Shown in pieces: positions 5,804-8,272 of a DNA stretch of 64,000 nt. The first letter of the stretch is position 1; each line of letters opens with the position of its first letter. A program made the translations under genes and the position numbers. The stretch covers positions 1 to 64,000 of the forward strand of contig RGCC01000001.1 in the NCBI GenBank assembly GCA_009919335.1, read 5' to 3'. The notes under the pieces were generated by a model. It did not search any database and was not told where the DNA came from. It saw nothing but the letters and a program-made list of their open reading frames with translations. Origin of the DNA: Alphaproteobacteria bacterium (GTDB lineage Bacteria; Pseudomonadota; Alphaproteobacteria; Puniceispirillales; Puniceispirillaceae).

Positions 5804-6018
5804 ATTACATAGAAATTGATAGAGATAAGCCACATTCGACGCGCCTTGTGAGCGGTAAGGTGGCCATGTTTGCTGGGTGAAACAGGGGCATTTGGCGGTT
5901 AAGACCGTGCTGATTGTGCTTTTGCCAGAAACTATTTATAGACATTAGAAGTACCGATTTTCATGTGTCTAGTTGGCTTCTGGCACGCCGGCTGACCGCT
6001 ATTCTGGATATCATCTCA

Positions 6019-7006
6019 ATGCAGGCGACAAGCAATACCGGCAATGTAATCAGGCTTGCGGCGGCGCAGGCGCTGTCGATGACGACAATGAACGTCAATA
6101 TCATCAACACCGCGCTTGTTGGCAGCCTCTTATCGCCGGTTCCATGGTTGGCGACCCTTGGGCTGTCACTGCAATTTGTGACATCAATGTTAACAACCTT
6201 GCCAGCGTCATTGCTGATGGTGCGTTTTGGTCGGCGTCCGGTCTTCGGGCGGGTTGCTCGCTGCTTTTATGGGGCCGGAAATCGCTCGAAATACGGTCGA
6301 TTTTGTGCCCGGCCATCTCTATGCAGGATGTTTTTTCAGCGTTGCCGCAGTCCAGCTTGTCTCGCTAGGGTTTTTATCCGGCGTCAAAATTCCAAAGCCA
6401 ACGCTGACCGGGTCGGGTGGACGCCCGATTGGCACTTTTTTCACGATGCCCGTTTTTGTGGTGGGGGCGATCAGCGCTGCCATCGGCTATGCGATGATGA
6501 GCTATATGATGACAGCAACGCCGCTTCAGGTGGTGAATGTCGCCAAGCTAGGCACATCAGCAAATGCGACAATTATCCAGTGGCACGTTGTTGCCATGTT
6601 TGCGCCCGCTTTTTTCACGGGTAACCTTATCAGCCGGTTTGGTGCGCCGGTGATTTTAACCGCAGGTGTTCTGACGTATCTTGCGGCAATTGCCAGTGCG
6701 GTCCTTGGTATCGGCTTTTGGTGGTATTTCGTCTCGCTGGCGCTGATGGGGCTGGGCTGGAATTTTCTTTACATCGGCGGCAGCTCGTTGGTCGCAAGTG
6801 TGGCCAACCCCGAAGAACGCGGGCGGGTTCAGGGCATTGCTGATCTGATCACAACAACCTCAGTTGCAACCGCGTCGCTGGTTGCCGGTGCGCTACACAG
6901 CCAGTTCGGCTGGGAAGTCATGGTGTTATCAGCATTGGGACCGGTGCTAATCATCGCCCTATCACTGTCCTGGCTGATTTTATCACGCCGCAGCATGCGG
7001 GTTTAA
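6019..7006 (+). pseudogene. MFS transporter pseudogene with internal frameshifting deletion
   Basis: Two reading frames together give one MFS protein with a missing middle. From an ATG at 6019, frame 1 encodes TM1-TM2 up to RFGRRPVF (to about 6245), the loop 2-3 motif. Reading resumes in frame 2 at about 6245 with GGLLAAFMGPEIAR and continues through about seven more TM segments to 7006. Intact relatives have roughly 60-70 residues (TM3, TM4 and their loops) between these points. The join therefore removed about 200 bases and shifted the frame. That is too much for a sequencing error. The downstream half begins with a weak GTG and lacks the first helices. Confidence 0.75.
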
Positions 7007-7130
7007 TGGCGCGATTATTCTTCTGTAAAAACACTTATATTGCATTGCAGCATAAGAAATTGGCTGATTTAATTAAACACGAAATGGAAACAATCAATTT
7101 TCAAATTAGATTTTATAAAGAAATGAGCCA

Positions 7131-7159
7131 AAAAAAAGGTCGTAAGCAAGCTTACGACC
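7131..7159 (-). terminator. Rho-independent terminator of the candidate sRNA
   Basis: A perfect 9-base stem (7138-7146 with 7151-7159) with loop 7147-7150 is followed on the minus strand by seven T residues (7131-7137). It could also serve transcripts reading through from gluQ, which ends at 7304. Confidence 0.8.
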
Positions 7160-7198
7160 GAGTCTAGGGAGGAAACACACAAACTCACGTTTGGTGCA
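7131..7198 (-). ncRNA. Candidate small regulatory RNA with anti-Shine-Dalgarno motif
   Basis: On the minus strand a promoter-like pair (7203-7233) is followed by a transcript of about 68 bases ending in a textbook terminator. The terminator has GGTCGTAAG/CTTACGACC arms (7138-7146 and 7151-7159), a 4-base loop and seven T residues (7131-7137 read in reverse). Just before the terminator lies TTTCCTCCCTAG (reverse of 7163-7174), the complement of a strong Shine-Dalgarno sequence CTAGGGAGGAAA. Hfq-dependent sRNAs such as alphaproteobacterial AbcR and the CCUCCUCCC family use such motifs to block translation. No open reading frame fits. The start site is inferred. Confidence 0.55.
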
Positions 7199-7202
7199 AT
7201 GC

Positions 7203-7233
7203 AGTATATGAGATTATTATCATTTTAAGTCAA
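7203..7233 (-). promoter_or_regulatory. Sigma-70-type promoter for the candidate sRNA
   Basis: Read on the minus strand, TTGACT (7228-7233) is followed by CATATA at a 17-base spacing (7205-7210) or TATACT at 19 bases (7203-7208). The expected start is near 7197-7199, giving a transcript of about 68 bases to the T run at 7131. Confidence 0.5.
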
Positions 7234-7292
7234 CCCCACTGACTAATTTAAATGATAGAAAAAAAGATGCAGGTCGCGGCTAGGCGTGATTT

Positions 7293-7316
7293 AGCCTGAA
7301 AAATCAGGTTTTTTTT
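7293..7316 (+). terminator. Rho-independent terminator, plus strand
   Basis: CCTGA (7295-7299), loop AAAA and TCAGG (7304-7308) are followed by eight T residues (7309-7316). It ends plus-strand transcription from the MFS pseudogene and overlaps the gluQ stop codon on the other strand. Confidence 0.65.
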
Positions 7317-8272
7317 GGATTTTTTTGCGGCTGAATAACTGGAATTGGCGGCATTTTGGCAAAAATTCGTGCTGGATCGTCATCAATGAGCCGCATCGAC
7401 TGGAGGCTATGAGCAGAATCGCGCTTGGCGAGGCGATTGCCGGTCTGGTCAAGAATCAGGGCGTGATGGCAGTAATCGGGTGTTCGCAGCCCCAAAAGCG
7501 CCTGTAACAGCCGGTGAAGATGTGTTGAAGGCGCCAGATCATTACCGCGGGTCACAAGCGTAATACCGTCAAGCATATCATCGACCACAACTGACAGATG
7601 ATATGAGACGGCAATATCGGCACGGGCGATAACCACATCACCAAATTGTGCCGGATTGGCAGTTTGGTATCCGGCAAGATAGTCAAACCAGCCAAGTTTA
7701 TCGCCTTGTGCCCGCGCGGACGCCATTTCAAGAGCGGCACCCATCCGCAACCGCCAAGCCGCACCAGTGCCGGCAGCACGGCGGCGATCTATTTCAGCCG
7801 CACTTAACAGCCGGTCGGTATTGCTGACGATGTCGTCGCTCGCTGTCATTGGCGGGTCAATATTTGGCGGGTCAATATTTGGTGGCGCGGATGGCGATGT
7901 ATGCGGCGCGCTGAGCAGCGCGTTTAATTCCCGGCGACTAAGATAGCATGGGTAAACAAGCCCCATATCCTGAAGTGTTTTAAGTGCGGCTTGATAGGCG
8001 GGCATCCGCTGCGATTGGCGGGGGGCATTGCAGCCGGCTGTATCGGTCGTTGCCGCGCTATGCCATGCCAGCCCAAGCCAGTCTAAATCGTTGAAAATCT
8101 CTGCGGCGAAATGATCGCGGCAACGTGTGTGATCAATATCATCAATCCGCAGGATCATTTTCCCGCCCGATTGTGCCGCCAAATCATGCGCCACCTTTGC
8201 CGCATAGGCATGGCCGAGATGCAAAAGCCCAGTAGGGCTTGGTGCAAACCGGGTGATAAACGGACGATTCAT
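7304..8272 (-). CDS. gluQ: Glutamyl-Q tRNA(Asp) synthetase
   Basis: GluQRS attaches glutamate to the queuosine base at the wobble position of tRNA(Asp). It resembles the catalytic half of glutamyl-tRNA synthetase without the anticodon-binding domain. The 322-residue protein opens with TRFAPSPTGLLHLGH, the class I HIGH motif, then shows LRIDDIDHTRC. The KMSKS-equivalent loop reads NRLAKRD near residue 285. The Cys-x-Cys zinc site of E. coli GluQRS is reduced to a single Cys (YPCYLSRRE), as in many alphaproteobacterial forms. A proline-rich insert at about residues 130-140 contains a 15-bp tandem duplication (PPNIDPPNID). Confidence 0.9.
   Translation of the reverse strand: MNRPFITRFAPSPTGLLHLGHAYAAKVAHDLAAQSGGKMILRIDDIDHTRCRDHFAAEIFNDLDWLGLAWHSAATTDTAGCNAPRQSQRMPAYQAALKTLQDMGLVYPCYLSRRELNALLSAPHTSPSAPPNIDPPNIDPPMTASDDIVSNTDRLLSAAEIDRRRAAGTGAAWRLRMGAALEMASARAQGDKLGWFDYLAGYQTANPAQFGDVVIARADIAVSYHLSVVVDDMLDGITLVTRGNDLAPSTHLHRLLQALLGLRTPDYCHHALILDQTGNRLAKRDSAHSLQSMRLIDDDPARIFAKMPPIPVIQPQKNPKKT
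7851..7880. repeat. 15-bp tandem duplication inside gluQ
   Basis: GGCGGGTCAATATTT occurs twice, back to back (7851-7865, 7866-7880), identical. On the coding strand it doubles a five-residue proline-rich unit in a loop of GluQRS, keeping the frame. Confidence 0.9.

Follow-up and report, generated by a model that had tools for sequence, protein, structure and literature searches.

Among the small RNAs of Alphaproteobacteria, those of the alpha-r8 family silence mRNAs by occupying their ribosome-binding sites. Members of the family are recognized by an internal single-stranded 5'-UUUCCUCCCU-3', with a weak hairpin before it and a Rho-independent terminator after it (PMC12559287). In Caulobacter, the member SisA uses this same seed to repress TonB-dependent receptors as well as other transporters (PMC12559287), and the gene of the S. 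meliloti member, mmgR, is repressed by AniA/PhaR (PMC7143759). Purified PhaR binds CAATTGTGCACCGCAGCATTA in the mmgR start region, as proven by EMSA; the consensus of its sites is WNWDDNYGCRNYGCRNHHWNW, and the S. meliloti PhaR core is YGCRNYGCR (PMC12542648).

The window analysed here, a stretch of 64,000 nucleotides from a draft alphaproteobacterial genome of the order Puniceispirillales, carries on its minus strand an unannotated element of this kind. An earlier note on the sequence had described there a promoter, an anti-Shine-Dalgarno core and a 9-bp hairpin, all of which are confirmed by direct reading, together with a run of seven T and a boundary at 7131, which have to be corrected to eight T and 7130. 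The -35 element TTGACT (7228..7233) is separated by a 17-nt spacer from the -10 element CATATA (7205..7210), an alternative reading TTGACT-19-TATACT also being present, and transcription is expected to start at about 7199-7197 and to yield an RNA of about 68-70 nt, for a gene that spans 7130..7199. In the predicted structure a 5' hairpin (7175..7197, in both the MFE and the centroid fold) is followed by the single-stranded TTTCCTCCCTAGACTC and then by the terminator hairpin. The core UUUCCUCCCU (7166..7175) is identical to the alpha-r8 family 10-mer (PMC12559287) and has nine of its ten bases unpaired in the MFE fold; a longer reading of it, TTTCCTCCCTAG (7175 to 7164), is the exact complement of CTAGGGAGGAAA. 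The Rho-independent terminator (7130..7159), identified by terminator scan, fold and covariation, consists of a 9-bp stem at 7159-7138 and T8 at 7137-7130, and has the most pairs among the 10 terminator-like sites of a 4.5-kb promoter and terminator scan; the same scan does not call the sRNA promoter, because the -10 element is non-canonical. The order of hairpin, single-stranded core and terminator is accompanied by a folding z-score of -4.7 to -5.1, with none of 200 shuffles equally stable.

The match of the element to Rfam family RF00519 (suhB/mmgR, "Makes More Granules Regulator", alpha-r8) extends over the full length of the model (1-77) and scores 40.4 bits (E 3.4e-7) in a permissive scan of 281 bp, against a curated gathering cut-off of 41; default Rfam scans are silent on the locus because it falls 0.6 bit under that cut-off. 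The shortfall is marginal, since gluQ-linked orthologues of the same genus (G003, G004, G002 and G008 among them) score above the cut-off, and 30 genomes of the order have copies above it. RF00519 is found in 65 of the 136 genomes of the order and in 33 of the 43 good ones, compared with 71 genomes found by clade model R1, which gives the window sRNA 84 bits but contains the window sequence itself by construction. Each element of the family hallmark is found here, the exact 10-mer, the weak upstream hairpin and the downstream terminator; linkage to an FGase gene, which is usual in alpha-r8 as a typical, non-defining trait, is not, the neighbour being gluQ. As a side observation on copy number, three genomes (G116, G029 and G002) each carry six to seven alpha-r8 copies, a lineage-specific expansion of the family.

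The region is 75-91% identical in other genomes of the genus, and the core is invariant in all 38 aligned sequences. Single-sequence folds show a hairpin immediately before the core in 38 of 38 relatives and recover the complete hairpin-core-terminator fold in 33. In the terminator stem, both sides have changed in five of the eight counted pairs and 99.3% of cells remain paired, a level reached by none of 500 shuffles; the 5' hairpin was left out of this count because MAFFT slides it, and was assessed by the single-sequence folds instead. The promoter is conserved too: the -35 position keeps GGGGTTGACT within the genus and, across the order, TTGAC in nearly every gluQ-linked copy, and most genera share the -10 string CATAT. 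A separate observation concerns a dyad, AGTCA-N7-TGACT, which lies across the -35 element (7228-7244; AGTCAGTGGGGTTGACT on the minus strand) and is a possible activator site; related GGTCAG...TTGACT strings occur in another family of the order.

The upstream neighbour on the same strand is gluQ (7304..8272, minus), the gene of tRNA glutamyl-Q(34) synthetase, identified by an NF004315 equivalog match above cut-off. It adjoins 55 of the 57 orthologous loci and thus forms a conserved syntenic anchor; the other two (L031 and L051), on short contigs with no gluQ match, were assigned to the gluQ type by sequence. On the other side lies an MFS transporter gene (about 5973-7006, plus strand), which the earlier note called decayed. 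Its frame is indeed broken in the draft, but in the same-species genome G117 the gene in this place reads through without interruption for 428 aa, and in G008 for 426 aa, so the break is either recent or an assembly error.

Taken together, the family match, the exact core, the structure, the covariation, the order-wide gluQ synteny and the conserved promoter identify the sequence from 7199 to 7130 on the minus strand as a real gene of the already described alpha-r8/MmgR/SisA family. The proposal of an unannotated anti-Shine-Dalgarno sRNA of the trans-acting type has thus held up, its promoter, motif and terminator being conserved in relatives and gluQ-linked copies being present in 55 genomes of the order, and the suggested covariance-model search did return a family, though a known one and not the AbcR or Cuckoo kinship that had been supposed. 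That kinship, to AbcR (alpha-r15) or a CcsR/Cuckoo-type RNA, is very improbable. Both groups share a C-rich anti-Shine-Dalgarno motif, and the predicted targets discussed below include solute-binding proteins, but suhB/mmgR is the best Rfam match in the clan. AbcR membership was rejected on architecture, the window RNA having one core, two hairpins, about 70 nt and a gluQ neighbourhood, as against two motifs, a three-stem RNA of about 115 nt (114-120) and an lsrB neighbourhood; CcsR/Cuckoo membership was rejected because CCUCCUCCC is absent from the sRNA, which has only UUUCCUCCCU. Still less credence can be given to a functional plus strand, on which GGGAGG would serve as leader to a 9-codon frame (ATG CAG TAT ATG...) that begins about 24 nt after it: the ATG lies too far away, relatives do not keep the frame, and it is the minus strand that has the T-run, the promoter and the greater part of the fold excess (z of -4.7/-5.1, versus -2.6 on the plus strand). 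The RNA, then, is not of a new kind; what is new is its control region, in which the earlier note had missed the PhaR operators.

The first of these putative PhaR/AniA operators has the core TGCATTGCA at 7203-7195 on the minus strand, almost directly after the -10 element and overlapping the expected start; it matches YGCRNYGCR and departs from the full 21-mer PhaR consensus at one position. The second (7035..7055, with core TGCATTGCA at 7041-7049) is found past the terminator, at a distance of 154 bp from the first, and matches the full 21-mer perfectly. A canonical PhaR is encoded in the genome (contig C192; TIGR01848, 125.8 bits against a cut-off of 109.45), and the region upstream of its own phaR contains TGCANTGCA twice, as is the case in several relatives. 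The short motif is uninformative by itself as a regulon marker, because most of its 30 genome-wide sites lie inside reading frames, and matches to the full consensus at one mismatch are no commoner than chance within the window. A further inverted repeat, TTGTTTCC-N5-GGAAACAA, stands between the sRNA terminator and operator 2 at L020, L014, L028 and L017; it is degenerate in the window (about 7075-7100), occurs in several genera, including genomes without PhaR, and would be either a regulator site or the 3' hairpin of the convergent gene. An iron-regulator site, considered because GATAATAATC lies in the spacer and a Fur-family gene nearby, was rejected, as the string is not kept in relatives.

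Evidence on the operators comes from their distribution across the 57 gluQ-type copies, of which 20 are in genomes with canonical PhaR and 37 in genomes without, where absence of PhaR or PhaC from a draft genome means that it was not detected and is no proof of loss. Site 1 (YGCRNYGCR) is present in 20 of 20 genomes with PhaR, 24-28 bases before the core, versus 6 of 37 without it, at 21-28 bases (Fisher 1.9e-10), and among genomes at least 88% complete in 13 of 13 versus 4 of 24 (6.7e-7). Site 2 occurs in 19 of the 20 PhaR-bearing genomes, at +110 to +126 relative to the core, so that the pair, with a spacing between operators of 136-154 bp across genomes, is found in 19 of 20 versus 4 of 37, and three of these four PhaR-less genomes are incomplete and come from a genus that otherwise has PhaR. 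In flank shuffles each site arises in about 0.5-0.7% of draws per locus, and none of 23 alpha-r8 paralogues, 10 of them in PhaR-bearing genomes, has site 1. PhaR carries stops in G013 and is a remnant in G014, and both lack both sites, which are kept along with PhaR in their sister G005; G002, with only a PHB-cluster-type PhaR paralogue, is without the site. Counter to the association, no PhaR was detected in G017 (98% complete), which keeps both sites, or in G019 and G025, each with a string like site 1. The classing of G002, G013 and G014 as PhaR-negative is the author's reading of scores and frames, and if every PF07879 match is taken as PhaR, these three included, the agreement is 20 of 23. 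On the GluQ tree PhaR changes eight times; five well-supported independent contrasts, from which incomplete f3 genomes were left out, comprise four that agree with the operator pair, none that disagrees and one without difference, which gives a sign-test p of 0.125, the lowest possible with four informative pairs, so that this correction for relatedness is too small a test to reach significance. At the level of sequence, then, the paired PhaR-type operators track the PhaR gene. Other arrangements exist: alpha-r8 genes at L142 (an alphaproteobacterium), L148 and L141/L146 (Lichenibacterium and Methylobacterium) have two tandem PhaR-like sites upstream and none just downstream.

Two other explanations of the strings have to be weighed against PhaR control of the sRNA gene. 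They may belong to the promoter or hairpin, or be recognized by another regulator whose distribution happens to coincide with that of PhaR; operator 1 does overlap the 5' arm of the first hairpin, and the association contains only four to five independent contrasts. The second copy of the motif, however, is non-transcribed, the same motif stands twice upstream of phaR, and both sites have been lost where PhaR is broken or missing (G013/G014) but not in the sister G005, and this explanation is accordingly considered improbable. Somewhat less remote, yet unlikely, is that operator 2 serves a transcript of its own, such as an antisense RNA or sponge that runs rightward over the sRNA gene, or else a second, short sRNA running leftward, and has no part in mmgR repression. 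This would account for its better consensus match and for its being conserved as well as operator 1, and on the plus strand of some genomes a TATAT stands ahead of operator 2; against it, no -35/-10 pair is conserved beside operator 2 across genera in either direction, and where checked the neighbouring gene converges on operator 2, which therefore is at no gene's 5' end. The favoured reading remains that both operators act on the sRNA gene.

PhaR, a regulator of carbon storage, is known as a sensor of the polymer PHB. PHB synthase follows a different distribution. PhaC_N matches occur, within the genus, only in this genome, its same-species partner and G002, and the class III PHB synthase model yields no further matches above its cut-off. 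No PhaC_N match or PHB synthase is detected in 18 of the 20 PhaR-bearing genomes with operators, several of which are 98-99% complete, and because of this the sequences indicate that PhaR in the clade must often respond to a signal other than PHB. The PHB genes of the present genome are a phaC-depolymerase locus (L069) and a phaB-phasin-second PhaR locus (L068), and no YGCRNYGCR occurs in the promoters read at either. The second PhaR-like protein of the PHB cluster (L068, 1914-2462) scores 87.8 against the TIGR01848 cut-off of 109.45, and its type was found only in G000, G117, G002 and G008.

Targets were sought genome-wide by pattern searches. The exact complement of the core, the search that the earlier note had called for, occurs once in the 1.8-Mb genome, in the sRNA gene itself, and gives no other target. 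Among imperfect complements, GGGAGG lies 3-14 nt before ATG 28 times, versus 16 for the reversed pattern, and 12 of these sites begin a plausible gene, four of them encoding solute-binding proteins (Peripla_BP_6, TctC and two TAXI/NMT1_3) and a fifth a TRAP permease. In predicted duplex energy (-16.5 to -19.7 kcal/mol) these five take ranks 2-6, behind a TauD site (-20.9 kcal/mol), where the best 1% of random windows reaches -16.6, although highly expressed binding-protein genes have strong Shine-Dalgarno sequences in any case, a confound in this ranking. Since SisA represses transporters through the same seed, transporter silencing, as had originally been suggested, is a plausible best guess.

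It is thus judged very probable that the sRNA, with Hfq, covers Shine-Dalgarno regions and that PhaR represses its gene through the start-site operator together with the second one. Canonical PhaR would bind the operator over the start site, as the conserved operators suggest, with help from the operator beyond the terminator, and the whole gene may be looped between the two. Titration of PhaR, or its release by a signal, would allow the sRNA to be made, and its exposed UUUCCUCCCU, as in characterized relatives, would then pair with Shine-Dalgarno regions and block translation of a set of mRNAs that probably includes those of solute-binding proteins. Looping is a hypothesis, weakly supported because the operators are not separated by a fixed number of helical turns, and a literature search for DNA looping by PhaR returned no relevant paper. 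The complete same-species genome encodes Hfq, as do 65 others of the order; the gene was not found in the present draft assembly, probably owing to an assembly gap. Hfq and alpha-r8 co-occur by family in the order, and family f4 is without Hfq and, one marginal match excepted, without alpha-r8, many f4 genomes having PhaR and PhaC. A stronger combined proposal, that PhaR in this marine order has been uncoupled from PHB and is mainly a dedicated alpha-r8 repressor, that the bracketing operators loop the gene and that the output is silencing of nutrient transporters, is tentative and on balance doubtful.

A family of which only two systems have been characterized thus gains a set of unannotated orthologues that runs through the order, some alpha-r8 members being narrowly excluded by the Rfam cut-off. 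The PhaR-mmgR link, known from a root symbiont, now extends to marine bacteria around Puniceispirillum (the Candidatus Puniceispirillum MAGs belong to the SAR116 group), and the link is kept where PHB synthase is undetected, which raises the testable question of what PhaR senses without PHB. The paired operators offer a compact system for testing whether a loop around an sRNA gene can repress it.

Of the described systems, AbcR1 and AbcR2 (alpha-r15) share with the window sRNA the anti-Shine-Dalgarno mode and the transporter mRNAs that are predicted as its targets, and differ in their two motifs, three stem-loops, length of 114-120 nt and tandem arrangement at the lsrB locus. SisA-D of Caulobacter crescentus (alpha-r8) have the core as seed and the weak upstream hairpin in common with it, and like them the order has several copies per genome, one here and three in the complete same-species genome; SisA, however, has an N-formylglutamate amidohydrolase gene as its neighbour, the sponge CrfA inactivates it, and its account mentions no PhaR site (PMC12559287), in contrast to the gluQ neighbour and two candidate sites of the window sRNA. 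The closest counterpart is MmgR of S. meliloti (RF00519), with the same core, single-stranded before the terminator hairpin, a similar length (77 nt, against about 70) and a PhaR/AniA site in the start region. Its host's phasin genes carry a promoter PhaR site, unlike the PHB loci read in the window genome. Most PhaR-bearing relatives of that genome, moreover, are without PHB synthase, and the sRNA gene itself differs from mmgR in standing beside gluQ, with a second PhaR site beyond its terminator.
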